Shown: piece by piece, positions 4,014 through 52,173 of the stretch
Position numbering within the stretch: the first letter of the stretch is position 1
Layout of the letters: the number at the start of each line of letters is the position of its first letter
Assembly (NCBI RefSeq): GCF_015207425.1
Contig: NZ_JADEWZ010000015.1
Coordinates: 62,001 to 126,000 of the forward strand
Origin: Lusitaniella coriacea LEGE 07157
Lineage (GTDB): Bacteria; Cyanobacteriota; Cyanobacteriia; Cyanobacteriales; Spirulinaceae
DNA: 64,000 nucleotides
Reading direction: 5' to 3'
Made by a program: the position numbers and the translations under genes
Notes under the pieces: generated by a model
Told to the model about the DNA's origin: nothing
What the model saw: the letters and a program-made list of their open reading frames with translations, nothing else
Databases searched by the model: none

Positions 4014-4988
4014 ATGTTCGCCCCCCTCCTCGGACAACCCCAAGCCGTCGAACTCCTTCAACAAGCCGTCCGACAAAATCGGATTGCTCCCGCCTATCTT
4101 TTTGTCGGTTCTCCCGGTATCGGACGGCAACTCGCGGCAAAAGCCTTCAGCCTCCTTTTGTTAGGTCAAGGGATACCAGAAAAGTGGCACGCGCCCCTAC
4201 AACAGCGCTTGCAAGCAGGCAATCATCCAGATTTCCTCTGGGTGCAACCCACCTATCTCCATCAGGGCAAGCGTTTGACCGTTGCCGAAGCAGCCGCAGC
4301 AGGGATTGAGCGCAGAGGCGCACCCCAAATTCGTATCGAGCAAATTCGAGAGATTGCGCAATTTCTCAGCCGTCCTCCCTTAGAAGCACCCCGCGCAGTA
4401 GTGGCGATTGAGGAAGCGCAAACAATGGCAGAAGGGGCAGCAAATGCCCTCCTCAAAACCTTGGAAGAACCGGGACGCGCCACGCTGATTTTAATCGCCC
4501 CTAGAACGGATTCTCTGTTACCCACTCTCGTCTCTCGCTGTCAGTCTATTCCCTTTTATCCCTTGGCACTAGAACAGATGCGCCAAGTGTTAGAGCAAGA
4601 AGGGTACGCTGAAATTTTAGACTATCCAGAAATTTGCGCGATCGCGCAGGGCAGTCCCGGAGAAGCCATTCGCGCTTGGCAGCAATACCAAAAAATTTCC
4701 CCAGAGTTGTTGGCACAATTGACTCAGCCGCCGCCTAATACTTATCGCGCCCTAGAACTTGCCAAAGAAATCAACAAAACTTTAGAAATCGAAAATCAAC
4801 TGTGGCTCTTAGATTATCTGCAATACTCTTATTGGCAACAATTTTTAAAAGGTAAAATCTCTCACTCTCCCTTGCGCCAACTCGAACAAGCCCGCCAATC
4901 CCTCCTCTGTTACGCTCAACCCCGCCTCGTGTGGGAAGTTGTTCTTTTAGGATTAACTGGCTCAATCCCCTTTCAAACAATCTCTTGA
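4014..4988 (+). CDS. holB: DNA polymerase III subunit delta' (clamp loader)
   Basis: AAA+ clamp-loader subunit of the replicative polymerase. It starts MFAPLLGQPQAVELL and has a P-loop-like LFVGSPGIGRQLAAKAF segment (residues ~27-43) followed by the EEAQTMAEGAANALLKTLEEP motif that is diagnostic of delta'/gamma proteins. The longer in-frame start at 3909 would overlap the preceding gene and run through the intergenic palindrome, so the ATG at 4014 is preferred (324 residues). The P-loop has Arg instead of Lys in GIGR, consistent with a delta' that does not hydrolyse ATP. Confidence 0.9.
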   Translation: MFAPLLGQPQAVELLQQAVRQNRIAPAYLFVGSPGIGRQLAAKAFSLLLLGQGIPEKWHAPLQQRLQAGNHPDFLWVQPTYLHQGKRLTVAEAAAAGIERRGAPQIRIEQIREIAQFLSRPPLEAPRAVVAIEEAQTMAEGAANALLKTLEEPGRATLILIAPRTDSLLPTLVSRCQSIPFYPLALEQMRQVLEQEGYAEILDYPEICAIAQGSPGEAIRAWQQYQKISPELLAQLTQPPPNTYRALELAKEINKTLEIENQLWLLDYLQYSYWQQFLKGKISHSPLRQLEQARQSLLCYAQPRLVWEVVLLGLTGSIPFQTIS

Positions 4989-46811: not shown

Positions 46812-47462
46812 ATGACATCTTATGCGGCTGCCTCTGCCAGGGCTGAGATGAGCGAACTGAGACGTTTAAAAACGCTACTTCCCCCAGAACTTCAAAGCTG
46901 GGTCATGGTAGAAGGTTCGACAGAAATCAACCCCCCCCTCATTCGTTGTGAGGAAATCGGCAGAGATGAAGTAGAAATCCAAATCGATTTAGCCAAGTGG
47001 GAAAATCTCGCGATCGATCAGCGCAATCTCCTCTTTTGGCACGAAGTCGGTCGAATTCAAAACGATACCATTCCCAAAGAAGGCTGGGAAATGGCAGCCC
47101 TCGCCATTGGTTTAGGCGGTGCGGTAGGAGAACTCTGGGTGCAAGATGGCTTACTCCTGCTGTTAGCCCTTGCTTTGTGCGGCGTATCGGGTTATCGCAT
47201 TTGGCAGAAAAACAATGGCGCGCGCTTGATTGAAGAAGGAATCGAAGCCGATGGAAAAGCGATCGCGCTGGCAACTCGCTTCGGTTATACACTCCCCAAC
47301 GCTTACAAAAGTTTGGGAAGCGCCCTCAAAACCCTAGTCGAGCAAACCCCAAATCGACGACAGCGCAAGAAATACGAGGAACGCTTGCAGGCGCTCAGAC
47401 GCAGTGCGGCGAAAGCTAAGGCGAAAATGCAGTCTCAACGGGAAAGCAACGTTCCCATTTAG
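46812..47462 (+). CDS. DUF3318 protein
   Basis: 216 residues. Cyanobacterial DUF3318 features: MSELRRLKTLLPPELQSWVM, the signature LLFWHEVGRIQNDTIPKEGW, two adjacent membrane helices (~97-136, LAIGLGGAVGELWVQDGLLL) and a basic C-terminal helix RRQRKKYEERLQALRR. Function unknown. Stand-alone on the plus strand. Confidence 0.85.
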   Translation: MTSYAAASARAEMSELRRLKTLLPPELQSWVMVEGSTEINPPLIRCEEIGRDEVEIQIDLAKWENLAIDQRNLLFWHEVGRIQNDTIPKEGWEMAALAIGLGGAVGELWVQDGLLLLLALALCGVSGYRIWQKNNGARLIEEGIEADGKAIALATRFGYTLPNAYKSLGSALKTLVEQTPNRRQRKKYEERLQALRRSAAKAKAKMQSQRESNVPI

Positions 47463-47723: not shown

Positions 47724-48725
47724 ATGAATAGCCAAATCCCAGAAGATCGGTTCCCGATTAACGTCTCTGACGATACGCCTGTTATCCAAATGCCTCCTCG
47801 CTTGAGCGTGTTAGAAGCCGTCGCTTTCGAGCATAGCTATCAACCGCTATTACAGCAAGATTCCAGCGCTAAACGAATTATTCTCAACCTCGAAAACACG
47901 ACATTTATTGATAGTAGTGGCGTGGGGGCATTAGTCCGCAGTTTTAAAGCGATGGATGCGAGTGGAGTCAAACTGATTCTCCAAAATGTGAATACTCCGG
48001 TGATGGGGGTATTGTCGATGACGAATCTCGATCGCGTGTTGACCATCGAACATATCATCCCTGCTGAAAACGCGGTACCGCGCCCCAAAGCGCAGCGCAG
48101 TCAATTGCCGGAGACGCATCCTTCGGTGCGTTCCTGGATTAAGCGATTCATTGATGTGATTGGCAGTCTTGTGGGGTTGGGCATTACTGCCATTTTATTC
48201 GTTCCGATCGCGATCGCGATTAAACTCGACAGTCCGGGACCCATTTTCTTCGAGCAAACCCGTTGTGGCTGGATGGGAAAGCATTTTACCATTTGGAAAT
48301 TCCGCTCCATGTGCAACGATGCAGAAGCCCTAAAAAACAGAATCGACAACCAAGCCAGCGGTGCATTTTTCAAAAATAAAAACGATCCCCGCGTCACGCA
48401 AGTGGGTTACTTCTTGCGCCGTACCAGTCTGGATGAATTGCCTCAATTCTGGAACGTTCTTAAAGGGGAAATGAGTTTGGTGGGAACCCGTCCCCCCACG
48501 CCCAATGAAGTCGAAATTTATAAAATTCCTGAATGGCAGCGATTGGATGTTAAACCGGGAATGACGGGAGAGTGGCAGGTGAACGGGCGATCGCGCGTGA
48601 GTAATTTTGAAGATGTCATTCGCCTCGATTTACGCTACCAAACAAACTGGAGTTTGCGGTACGATATTCAACTTATTCTCAAAACCATCGCGATCGTCTT
48701 CAATCGAGACAGTGGTGCCTATTAA
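47724..48725 (+). CDS. STAS domain fused to a bacterial sugar transferase
   Basis: 333 residues. Residues ~1-125 form a STAS (anti-sigma-factor antagonist-like) domain with the phospho-acceptor region FIDSSGVGALVR. Residues ~135-333 are a WcaJ/ExoY-type polyisoprenyl-phosphate sugar phosphotransferase: KRFIDVIGSLVGLGIT helix, KLDSPGPIFFEQTRCGWMGK, IWKFRSMCNDAE, RRTSLDELPQFWNVLKGEMS and LVGTRPPTPNEV, LDVKPGMTGEWQVNGRS. It would start exopolysaccharide repeat units at the inner membrane. The STAS fusion suggests control by the anti-sigma-type kinase encoded 13 bases downstream. Confidence 0.9.
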   Translation: MNSQIPEDRFPINVSDDTPVIQMPPRLSVLEAVAFEHSYQPLLQQDSSAKRIILNLENTTFIDSSGVGALVRSFKAMDASGVKLILQNVNTPVMGVLSMTNLDRVLTIEHIIPAENAVPRPKAQRSQLPETHPSVRSWIKRFIDVIGSLVGLGITAILFVPIAIAIKLDSPGPIFFEQTRCGWMGKHFTIWKFRSMCNDAEALKNRIDNQASGAFFKNKNDPRVTQVGYFLRRTSLDELPQFWNVLKGEMSLVGTRPPTPNEVEIYKIPEWQRLDVKPGMTGEWQVNGRSRVSNFEDVIRLDLRYQTNWSLRYDIQLILKTIAIVFNRDSGAY

Positions 48726-48738
48726 ACCTTTTACTTGA

Positions 48739-49176
48739 ATGCAACAACCCACTCCCAACGAGCATTTCAAGCTTCAACTCCCCACAGAATTAGAAGCTTT
48801 GCCTCAAGCATTGCAATGGTTCGAGAAAATTGCCCTGCCATTACTCCCCCAACAAGCTTACTGGCAGTGTCAAGTTGCCCTTGCGGAAGGATTTACCAAT
48901 GTTGTTCGCCACGCCCATCAAGGTTTGCCTCCCACCACCTCAATCGATCTGGAAATTCTCTTATGGGATCGCTGTTTTGAAATTCGGATTTGGGATTGGG
49001 GAAAACCTTTCGATCTCAAGGCAAAACTCCAAGAATTAAATCCCAATAATCTCAACGATCCCTTTTATGAAGGGGGACGCGGACTGATGTTCATTCAAAA
49101 GCTCACTGACGAATTACACTACTGCCGTCAGGCGGATAAGCGCAATTGTCTGACGATGCGTAAGGGACTTATCTGA
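48739..49176 (+). CDS. RsbW/SpoIIAB-type serine kinase (anti-sigma regulatory factor family)
   Basis: 145 residues. GHKL ATPase of the HATPase_c_2 class: N-box ALAEGFTNVVRHAHQGLP, G1-like IWDWGKPFDL, and glycine-rich lid GGRGLMFIQKLTD. Such proteins phosphorylate the serine of STAS-domain antagonists. The gene lies 13 bases after the STAS-sugar transferase gene on the same strand, so it is the natural partner in a switch controlling polysaccharide initiation (inference). Confidence 0.85.
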   Translation: MQQPTPNEHFKLQLPTELEALPQALQWFEKIALPLLPQQAYWQCQVALAEGFTNVVRHAHQGLPPTTSIDLEILLWDRCFEIRIWDWGKPFDLKAKLQELNPNNLNDPFYEGGRGLMFIQKLTDELHYCRQADKRNCLTMRKGLI

Positions 49177-49187
49177 GTTCCGTTTTT

Positions 49188-50126
49188 TTATCCACCGCAG
49201 CCGCCGCAGCCGCCACAGCCCCCGCAACCGCCTCCACAGCTACTTCCGCCACCGCAACTGGTGCCACAGCCGCTGCTACCACCAAAACTGCTGCCACTCG
49301 ATTGAGAGGGAACAGTAAAACGAGAAAATAACGTGGAATAACTTTGGAACAGGGCTTCAGGAAGATAACCCCAACCAAAAAGCGCGATCGCGAGCATTGT
49401 ATTGTAATCTGATTCGGGCGTTGGAATCGCCTCAACCTTTAATCCCGCAAACACTTGATTCAATTGTTGGAGATAGGTTTTTCCGCGAGTCGTCAAGCCG
49501 GTTTTCCGTTGTTCGATTATTACCCACAATGCGAATAGGGAGAAGAATGCCATTGCCATGAGAAATCCGACATTGTGGTGTCCTCGCGAGGTGGCAATGA
49601 GAAATTTATAGCCCCCTAAACCCAGAATAATTCCAGCCGCGATCGCGCTCAATTTCGGCTTTAATGATAACAGTTGAGTCGCTTGAGAATGTAGAAGCTT
49701 CTCTTTTTGCAAACAACTTTGGTATTCTTCTCGAACCTTGTCTCGCAGTGCGAGATCGCGACTCATATCTCCCCCCTTCTTCGCCGATGAAAACCAGTCA
49801 AAAACAGCTCGTTCCAAAGGCTTTAGTTCAAAGACATTAGAGGGATTCGTTGCTTGTTTGATATCTTTGTCCTGAATTTCTAAATACCCTTTTCGTACAA
49901 GCGTCCAACCCACTAACTCCAACACTTCGGTTTCGCCACCGCGTAGGTAGGCAATTTCGTAAGGATCGGGTTGTTCGGGAATTAAAGGAGAAGGTAGATT
50001 GGTTGTGGTATCCCGCGACAAAAAATGATAAACCCCGATTAAGGTAGCAGCAATCACCGCGCCGTAGAACCCTAAAAATTCGGGACCATACATATCGGCG
50101 ATGAAGTTGTGACTTAAGATATTCAC
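49188..50126 (-). CDS. TIGR04222-like membrane protein with Gly/Cys-rich tail
   Basis: 312 residues. N-terminal membrane helix (~15-37), a soluble region with DPYEIAYLRGGETEVLELV, and LVRKGYLEIQDKDI, two further helices (~160-205), a TTRGKTYLQQLNQVFAGLK stretch, and a C-terminal ~35-residue tail made almost only of Gly, Ser and Cys (GGCGGCGGCGGCGG). This matches the TIGR04222 plan (recollection). The Cys repeats may bind metal or become modified. Convergent with the anti-sigma gene. Confidence 0.75.
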   Translation of the reverse strand: MNILSHNFIADMYGPEFLGFYGAVIAATLIGVYHFLSRDTTTNLPSPLIPEQPDPYEIAYLRGGETEVLELVGWTLVRKGYLEIQDKDIKQATNPSNVFELKPLERAVFDWFSSAKKGGDMSRDLALRDKVREEYQSCLQKEKLLHSQATQLLSLKPKLSAIAAGIILGLGGYKFLIATSRGHHNVGFLMAMAFFSLFALWVIIEQRKTGLTTRGKTYLQQLNQVFAGLKVEAIPTPESDYNTMLAIALFGWGYLPEALFQSYSTLFSRFTVPSQSSGSSFGGSSGCGTSCGGGSSCGGGCGGCGGCGGCGG

Positions 50127-51414: not shown

Positions 51415-52173
51415 ATGAATCGATTTGAAGATAAAGTTGCTTTAGTGACAGGTGGTGGTTCCGGTATTGGTCGTGCTACTGCTCTTAAGTTTGCCTCAGA
51501 AGGCGCATCTGTTGTAATTGGCAATCGCAGCGAAAAAGCAGGTCAAGAAACAGTGAATTTAATTCAAAAAGCGGGCGGTAAAGCTAGTTTTTTCAAAACT
51601 GATGTCACTCAATTGGAAAACGTTCAAAAGTTAATTAAATACACAGTCGATACCTATGGGGGGTTGCACGCTGCATTTAATAACGCAGGAGTAGATGACC
51701 CTCAAGCAATGACTCCAGACCAAACAGAAGCTACTTTCGATCGGGTGATGAACGTCAATGTCAAAGGAGTTTGGTACTCCATGAAATGCGAAATCGAGCA
51801 GATGTTAAATAATGGGGGTGGCGCAATTGTTAATACTTCCTCTATTGCGGGATTGACTGGTTTTCCGGGGCATATAACCTACACTGCATCGAAGCACGCT
51901 GTTTTGGGTTTGACTAAAACGGCTGCTTTAGAATACGCCAAACAAGGAATTCGTATTAATGCAGTTTGTCCGGGCGCAATTGAAACCCAAATGCTTGATG
52001 ATTTGACGGGAGGAGATCATGAAGCGCGGGAATATATGACATCCTTGCATCCTATTGGTCGATTGGGCAAACCAGAAGAAATTGCGAACGCTGTTGTTTG
52101 GCTGTGTTCCGATGAAGCTTCTTTTATTCTCGGACAAGGTGTTGCAGTAGACGGAGGATTTACGGCAATTTAA
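51415..52173 (+). CDS. Short-chain dehydrogenase/reductase (classical)
   Basis: 252 residues. TGGGSGIGRA cofactor motif, NNAG (FNNAGVDD), catalytic Ser in NTSSIAGLTG, Tyr-x-x-x-Lys in YTASKHAVLG, and a C-terminal LGQGVAVDGGFTAI. NAD(P)-dependent glucose-dehydrogenase-like type. CAGGA precedes the start. First gene of a redox-type cluster divergent from LysR; substrate unknown. Confidence 0.93.
   Translation: MNRFEDKVALVTGGGSGIGRATALKFASEGASVVIGNRSEKAGQETVNLIQKAGGKASFFKTDVTQLENVQKLIKYTVDTYGGLHAAFNNAGVDDPQAMTPDQTEATFDRVMNVNVKGVWYSMKCEIEQMLNNGGGAIVNTSSIAGLTGFPGHITYTASKHAVLGLTKTAALEYAKQGIRINAVCPGAIETQMLDDLTGGDHEAREYMTSLHPIGRLGKPEEIANAVVWLCSDEASFILGQGVAVDGGFTAI

Follow-up and report, generated by a model that had tools for sequence, protein, structure and literature searches.

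A STAS–phosphoglycosyl transferase fusion and its neighbouring RsbW-type kinase suggest a partner switch at the first enzyme of cyanobacterial polysaccharide synthesis

Polysaccharide synthesis begins with a committed step that uses a shared lipid carrier, and the post-translational control of this step is described as incompletely understood (PMC12802240). A locus of the cyanobacterium Lusitaniella coriacea LEGE 07157 raises the question of whether this step can be governed by a phosphorylation switch built into the enzyme. The window, as we call the whole stretch of 64,000 nucleotides analysed, contains a gene at 47724-48725 (+ strand) for a 333-residue protein in which a STAS domain at the N-terminus precedes a monotopic phosphoglycosyl transferase (PGT) at the C-terminus. 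A co-directional open reading frame at 48739-49176 (+ strand), starting 13 nt past the fusion gene, encodes an RsbW/SpoIIAB-type kinase. The original prediction, made on these letters, was that the kinase phosphorylates the STAS serine and thereby controls exopolysaccharide initiation at the enzyme, not through a sigma factor. The features of the locus are the following.

46812..47462, + strand: DUF3318 gene, a conserved upstream neighbour (PF11780, 4.3e-47)
47724..48725, + strand: STAS-PGT fusion gene, 333 residues (open reading frame, Pfam, NCBIfam, PDB relatives)
47769..48047, + strand: STAS domain, residues 16-108 (PF01740, 1.1e-11; relatives SpoIIAA, RsbV and TM1442)
47913..47915, + strand: codon of Ser64, the predicted phospho-acceptor in DSSG (present in 190/190 fusion loci; helix-start residue in the AF2 model)
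48057..48119, + strand: linker between STAS and PGT, residues 112-132 (pLDDT below 50 in a modest-confidence AF2 model)
48141..48701, + strand: Bac_transf (monotopic PGT) catalytic domain, residues 140-326 (PF02397, 7.4e-67; relatives WbaP and PglC)
48432..48437, + strand: codons of the Asp237-Glu238 dyad (DE present in 190/190 loci)
48739..49176, + strand: RsbW/SpoIIAB-type serine kinase gene, 145 residues (PF13581, 7.9e-25; RsbW 6m36_A, 4.8e-6)
48886..48888, + strand: Glu50 codon of the kinase; the residue aligns with the N-box Glu of both RsbW and SpoIIAB (RsbW alignment; 63/63 adjacent kinases)
49164..49181, + strand: terminator-like hairpin and T-run overlapping the kinase stop codon (consensus scan only)

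The predicted fusion of a STAS domain (DSSGVGAL) to a sugar transferase is confirmed, with PF01740 and PF02397 on one open reading frame. The STAS part carries the motif D63-S64-S65-G-V-G and scores 44.9 bits against PF01740 (cut-off 22.6) and 57.3 against TIGR00377 (cut-off 53.45), which identifies the STAS fold. Its nearest solved relatives are TM1081, TM1442, SpoIIAA and RsbV, and its model superposes on 1th8_B with a VIA Z of 14.4 and an rmsd of 2.4 over 106 residues. In the AF2 model Ser64 opens helix 64-79, so that the D-S pair sits at the helix start as in SpoIIAA/RsbV-type STAS proteins. Those proteins have a single domain; here a PGT is attached.

The PGT part matches Bac_transf with 224.8 bits (curated cut-off 27), and its nearest solved relatives are WbaP first, then PglC. 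Asp237 and Glu238 we take to be the catalytic dyad, from work on PglC. The transferase had been described as WcaJ-type, a label that proves loose: the WcaJ equivalog score is 237.3 against a cut-off of 410.75, the N-terminus is a STAS domain and not a transmembrane bundle, and the nearest catalytic domains are those of WbaP and PglC. We therefore reject WcaJ as a family label. The large-monoPGT cut-off for WbaP is missed as well (228.3 versus 403), and STAS occupies the place of the four-TM bundle and cytoplasmic DUF that large PGTs carry at their N-terminus.

The RsbW-like kinase gene expected behind the fusion is also present (PF13581, 7.9e-25, after a 13-nt gap). Its product is a HATPase_c_2 protein with the N-box E50..N54, D86.G88 and the G2 glycine G115. 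The nearest solved relative is RsbW of the RsbV-RsbW complex, and SpoIIAB is also related; the kinase nevertheless scores below the RsbW equivalog cut-offs (42.7 versus 145 for PRK04069, 39.7 versus 155.05 for TIGR01924). The consensus scan gave no terminator-like hairpin on the + strand between the two genes; the call of a terminator at the end of the kinase gene is weak, because six hairpins were found in the region and 3.8 are expected. Modelled individually, the folds match SpoIIAA/RsbV, SpoIIAB/RsbW and PglC. AF2 models of the fusion (32 rows; pLDDT 65.5, pTM 0.44) and of a read-through STAS-PGT plus kinase (16 rows; pTM 0.37) place neither the domains nor the partners relative to each other.

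The arrangement is not peculiar to the Lusitaniella genome, a possibility that we rejected since the fusion recurs across cyanobacteria. Among 388 genomes drawn from the class, 325 match the query at 1e-40, many through the PGT part only; judged by eye, well over 100 of the matches listed cover nearly the whole fusion. We assembled 190 fusion loci, the window's own included, from 80 related loci (the best 80 of 388 candidates) and 110 loci of the class-genome draw (30 loci plus 80 further stretches, among the matches listed). They comprise 188 distinct sequences, the two sets overlapping by two identical pairs, and a few are paralogs of one genome. The related loci bear cyanobacterial titles throughout, except for one titled Gracilibacteria (L043); this MAG contig is very likely misbinned, given its 69% identity and its cyanobacterial neighbours and gene order.

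The STAS residues D63-S64 and the PGT D-E pair occur in all 190 loci. The serine is not required for the STAS fold, because three stand-alone STAS open reading frames of the window genome read DHFG, DHFG and NHFG at the phospho-acceptor site. A kinase gene lies downstream on the same strand within 1 kb in 63 of the 190 loci (25/80 in the related set, 38/110 in the class draw, the latter spanning 13 family codes by hand tally), and 127 loci are without an adjacent kinase. With the fusion recurring across cyanobacteria and a kinase behind it this often, the gene pair is far above chance. Ser64 is kept equally in the 127 kinase-less loci, so serine conservation alone does not point to the kinase; there, a kinase acting in trans or another role would maintain it.

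The two genes are tightly spaced. In 51/63 loci the kinase open frame, measured between stop codons, overlaps the PGT stop or opens no more than 20 nt beyond it; by first ATG, which was found in 41 of the 63 kinases, the start is at most 60 nt away in 29. E50, N54, G88 and G115 are present in every adjacent kinase and D86 in 61 of them, the other two having Asn for Asp. For a tree of the fusions we dropped rows shorter than 250 residues and rows sharing 88% identity or more with one already retained, leaving 121 nonredundant sequences, 48 of them with a kinase. Adjacency changes 7 times on this quick tree, which leaves many forks open, against a shuffled mean of 38.

The kinases themselves are more sharply divided. 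When the 48 adjacent kinases are placed in one tree with 38 other cyanobacterial kinases, adjacency changes twice, against 28 times when shuffled. The other kinases come from the window genome and 19 of 20 genomes, ten of these genomes having no adjacent kinase at the fetched fusion locus; the tree omits others scoring below 60, L235-L239, G375 and the single kinases of G334, G304 and G225. By eye, its main groups correspond to those on the fusion tree, and kinases of related genomes that lack the adjacency are not among the adjacent groups. Judged by their sequences, the fusion-adjacent kinases are distinct groups. Eleven of the 38 others share a tree half with them. One, L298, falls within the adjacent groups, although no fusion was found in its stretch of 3.6 kb; the other ten lie outside these groups. 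Eight of the ten (L022, L246, L261, L265, L273, L275, L279 and L285) adjoin a PP2C gene on the opposite strand, L270 adjoins a stand-alone STAS gene and L256 adjoins neither.

Co-variation gives a softer signal. Partial Mantel correlations are 0.54 for STAS with kinase and 0.36 for PGT with kinase over 47 pairs (L227 dropped; L014 read as its neighbour L011), and the bootstrapped difference of -0.03 to 0.33 is not significant, which leaves any STAS-kinase co-variation over and above shared ancestry suggestive only. Another kinase subfamily (L240, L243, L247, L252, L287, L290 and L294, also L255, L258 and L276) has no PP2C or STAS gene within about 1.5 kb on either side; its members are candidates for trans action on STAS-PGT proteins that have no kinase of their own. 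Two peculiarities of the adjacent kinases may be added: one STAS-PGT gene is followed by two tandem kinase genes (L048:8911-10161, + strand), and a G2 box resembling EAHWG takes the place of GGRGL in L160, L184, L185, L194, L196, L197, L219 and L228, with the key glycine kept.

What ties the kinase to a switch is the company it keeps. A PP2C phosphatase gene, a stand-alone STAS gene or both lie nearby in 12/63 loci with a kinase and in 1/127 without. The clustering persists among nonredundant rows (11/48 versus 1/73; Fisher 1.5e-4, a test that ignores kinship) and among loci with flanks of at least 2.4 kb (12/50 versus 1/90); the loci concerned represent perhaps five or six clades. Pfam confirmed three of the stand-alone STAS and seven of the PP2C proteins; the other eight STAS and three PP2C proteins were assigned by local HMMs, of which the STAS model took in one wrong-strand open reading frame (L006). 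All seven Pfam-scanned phosphatases are SpoIIE proteins, and six have a sensor domain above cut-off: a receiver in L160, L162 and L212, PAS in L092, GAF and PAS in L068 and L102. The seventh (L173) has a partial receiver below cut-off. This clustering is the strongest evidence that the kinase would act in a phospho-switch tied to the PGT.

All four parts, STAS-PGT, kinase, PP2C and stand-alone STAS, occur together at eight loci. They follow in this order, the last on the other strand, in L068, L092 and L102. In L160, L177 and L194, of family f6, the stand-alone STAS gene comes directly after the kinase and the PP2C gene follows in opposite orientation; in L196 and L212 the stand-alone STAS and PP2C genes are upstream. 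Two further loci have PP2C only (L162, L173) and two stand-alone STAS only (L197, L200). In L200 the stand-alone STAS gene (4033-4428, - strand) abuts the STAS-PGT start and its ARLSVIEA loop resembles that of the fused STAS, as if the fused domain had been duplicated.

At the window locus there are a kinase and a fused STAS only. No phosphatase gene and no glycan gene is found among the scanned neighbours, and SpoIIE genes are encoded elsewhere in the 5.86-Mb genome, which has 4 Bac_transf, 15 STAS, 13 HATPase_c_2 and 9 SpoIIE matches at 1e-3.

Support for a glycan role of the enzyme comes from other loci. Separate Alg14-like and GT28-C-like genes are both found upstream in 10/63 loci with a kinase and 6/127 without, a count restricted to separate upstream open reading frames since the marker HMMs matched all 190 loci through contamination by GT-STAS-PGT fusions. 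At L194, the one locus checked with Pfam, a family-2 glycosyltransferase, Alg14 and Glyco_tran_28_C lie upstream. A glycosyltransferase that we presume to be WcaI-like follows within 2 kb in 22/190 fusion loci. In addition, natural fusions extend the protein at its front: Alg14/GT28-STAS-PGT in L157:3478-5502 (- strand) and L158:2397-4619 (+ strand), WecG-STAS-PGT in L076:1609-3504 (- strand) and GT28C-STAS-PGT in L187:3035-4456 (- strand). Such proteins would join two steps of glycan assembly on one chain, with STAS between them. Both the gene context and the fusions support the glycan role of the enzyme, not its link to the kinase.

From these observations we propose the following mechanism. 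The STAS-PGT would prime an exported polysaccharide by transferring the first sugar-1-phosphate to the lipid carrier, and its N-terminal STAS would be the output of a partner switch, joined covalently to the enzyme. The kinase encoded downstream would bind this STAS and phosphorylate Ser64; a SpoIIE/PP2C phosphatase, encoded elsewhere in the window genome and at the locus in several relatives, would remove the phosphate. Phosphorylation and kinase binding would then gate the PGT through the flexibly linked STAS. That Ser64 is the kinase's substrate we consider likely. If it is, we lean slightly towards the unphosphorylated STAS being the active form, a polarity assumed from SiaC, SypA and HmpV. 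The mechanism as a whole, a partner switch with its output domain built into a polysaccharide-priming enzyme, is in our judgement reasonably probable, and it suggests that the first enzyme may itself be the point at which polysaccharide production is turned on or off. A broader version, in which sensor-PP2C, stand-alone STAS, dedicated kinase and STAS-PGT form a self-contained four-part valve on polysaccharide priming that works post-translationally and without a sigma factor, and of which the window would hold a reduced two-gene form, is put forward tentatively, at slightly under even confidence.

The predicted control at the enzyme thus stands in part. It is favoured by the distinct kinase groups, by adjacency clustered on the fusion tree, by the kept Ser64 and kinase residues and by phosphatase and stand-alone STAS genes at the same locus in several lineages; the 127/190 loci without an adjacent kinase speak against it, as does the separate STAS that in some loci offers a competing substrate. 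A further objection comes from the putative kinase-binding surface. In SypA, and also in SpoIIAA and RsbV, two acidic residues (Asp in SypA) are described as contacting the kinase (PMC10120452), and in SypA this pair probably lies in the loop equivalent to GELD of SpoIIAA. With the STAS part alone aligned by HMMER, the GELD loop falls on P-R26-L-S28 of the window protein, where R26 and S28 replace the acidic E and D; R26 is found in 54/63 loci with a kinase and 83/127 without. The objection is weak, because the loop Asp is kept in 5 of the 11 stand-alone STAS proteins of fusion loci and the loop is thus variable in cyanobacteria. So weakened, it roughly cancels against the Alg14/GT28 genes in kinase-less loci and leaves our estimate where it was. 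We considered whether R26 and an acidic residue close to the start of the kinase form a compensatory charge swap, and dropped the idea, since a similar acidic residue occurs in non-adjacent related kinases; alignments to solved structures did not reach this residue.

The same genes can be read in other ways. The kinase might hold the STAS-PGT inactive until an unphosphorylated stand-alone STAS draws it away, the PGT taking the place of a sigma factor. Stand-alone STAS genes (DSSG or DSAG) and PP2C genes do adjoin the STAS-PGT and kinase genes in several loci, and a fused STAS whose loop differs from GELD may bind the kinase differently; but 51 of the 63 kinase loci have no second STAS or PP2C gene within the stretch examined, and the fused STAS retains its phospho-acceptor in 190/190 loci. 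We hold sequestration unlikely. Alternatively, STAS could be a module for scaffolding, dimerisation or localisation, with the serine kept for the fold and the neighbouring kinase acting on some other STAS. Retention of the serine in 127/190 loci without an adjacent kinase would fit, as would the position of STAS between two enzymes in the GT-STAS-PGT fusions. The fold, however, can do without the serine, as the DHFG and NHFG proteins of the same genome illustrate, and neither the distinct kinase groups nor the phosphatase clustering is explained; we consider a purely structural role distinctly unlikely.

A conventional anti-sigma switch, in which the target of the kinase is a far-off sigma factor and the fused STAS does no more than titrate the kinase, would agree with RsbW and SpoIIAB, both anti-sigma kinases, being the nearest solved relatives. 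Yet the RsbW equivalog score is missed widely (42.7 versus 145), and in 13/13 genomes of 13 families no sigma-factor gene was found on the same contig at a distance of 10 kb or less, a search bounded by contig ends (at 7.5 kb on one side in G305, for example). The nearest one on the same contig is 11.4 kb off (G018) or farther, and six contigs have none. Over roughly 11 kb before and 6 kb after the window locus, with the open reading frame 51415-52173 excepted, the scanned neighbours likewise include no sigma factor and no polysaccharide cluster. A sigma factor encoded far away is compatible with both objections; even so, this reading is highly improbable, and the predicted independence from a sigma factor gains support within the distances covered. 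Gating of the PGT through its fused STAS remains the reading that we prefer.

Two elements of this preferred reading are already in print. The STAS-PGT architecture is that of all4160 of Anabaena PCC 7120, described in a review as a glycosyltransferase with an N-terminal STAS (PMC8256260) and listed among the genes on which the heterocyst envelope polysaccharide depends (PMC4390870). The statements on all4160 in these two papers mention no kinase partner, and in our survey the loci titled Nostoc, Anabaena or Calothrix have no adjacent kinase; all4160 presumably belongs to this kinase-less clade. Direct phospho-control of an initiating PGT is known from EpsW-EpsZ of Myxococcus xanthus, where a phospho-regulated partner acts on the enzyme; the same account mentions CapM and notes that small monoPGTs can carry receiver domains (PMC12802240). 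EpsW, unlike the fused STAS, is a separate receiver-domain regulator, and EpsZ is a large PGT carrying a TM bundle and a DUF.

Other partner switches are alike in part. In SiaABC-SiaD, HsbA-HsbD and BgrV-BgrR, phosphorylation of a STAS or STAS-like protein is reported to control an enzyme, a diguanylate cyclase, and not a sigma factor (PMC8457831); there the STAS is separate and the enzyme makes c-di-GMP, whereas the window protein joins its STAS to a PGT. HmpU-HmpW-HmpV of Nostoc punctiforme and SypE-SypA of Vibrio fischeri are STAS-output switches in motility and polysaccharide or in biofilm formation, but with a STAS that stands alone; the effector of HmpV is called undefined and the target of SypA unknown in these sources (PMC6495340, PMC8256260). 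At a guess, HmpW may fall in the other half of our kinase tree. RsbW-RsbV and SpoIIAB-SpoIIAA share domain folds, phospho-acceptor and kinase motifs with the window pair, and differ in their sigma-factor output, their unfused STAS and their GELD loop, which is PRLS in the window fusion. In the open-access literature searched we found no report of a kinase coupled to a STAS-PGT or of the four-part module. A widespread locus in which the STAS output is covalently part of the initiating enzyme offers a directly testable case, of relevance to cyanobacterial sheaths, blooms, biofilms and the engineering of exopolysaccharides.

The genes around the window pair are of mixed kinds: two proteins without a Pfam match, an FtsK-like protein, RND and HlyD efflux components, DUF3318, a TIGR04222 membrane protein, LysR, SnoaL, an F420-type oxidoreductase and an RNA methyltransferase. 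The DUF3318 gene recurs in the same orientation no more than 2 kb ahead of the STAS-PGT in 80/190 loci (29 with a kinase, 51 without), and its product may belong to the same pathway. On the other side, the TIGR04222 protein gene (49188-50126, - strand) lies tail to tail with the kinase gene and encodes a Cys/Gly-rich C-terminal tail.
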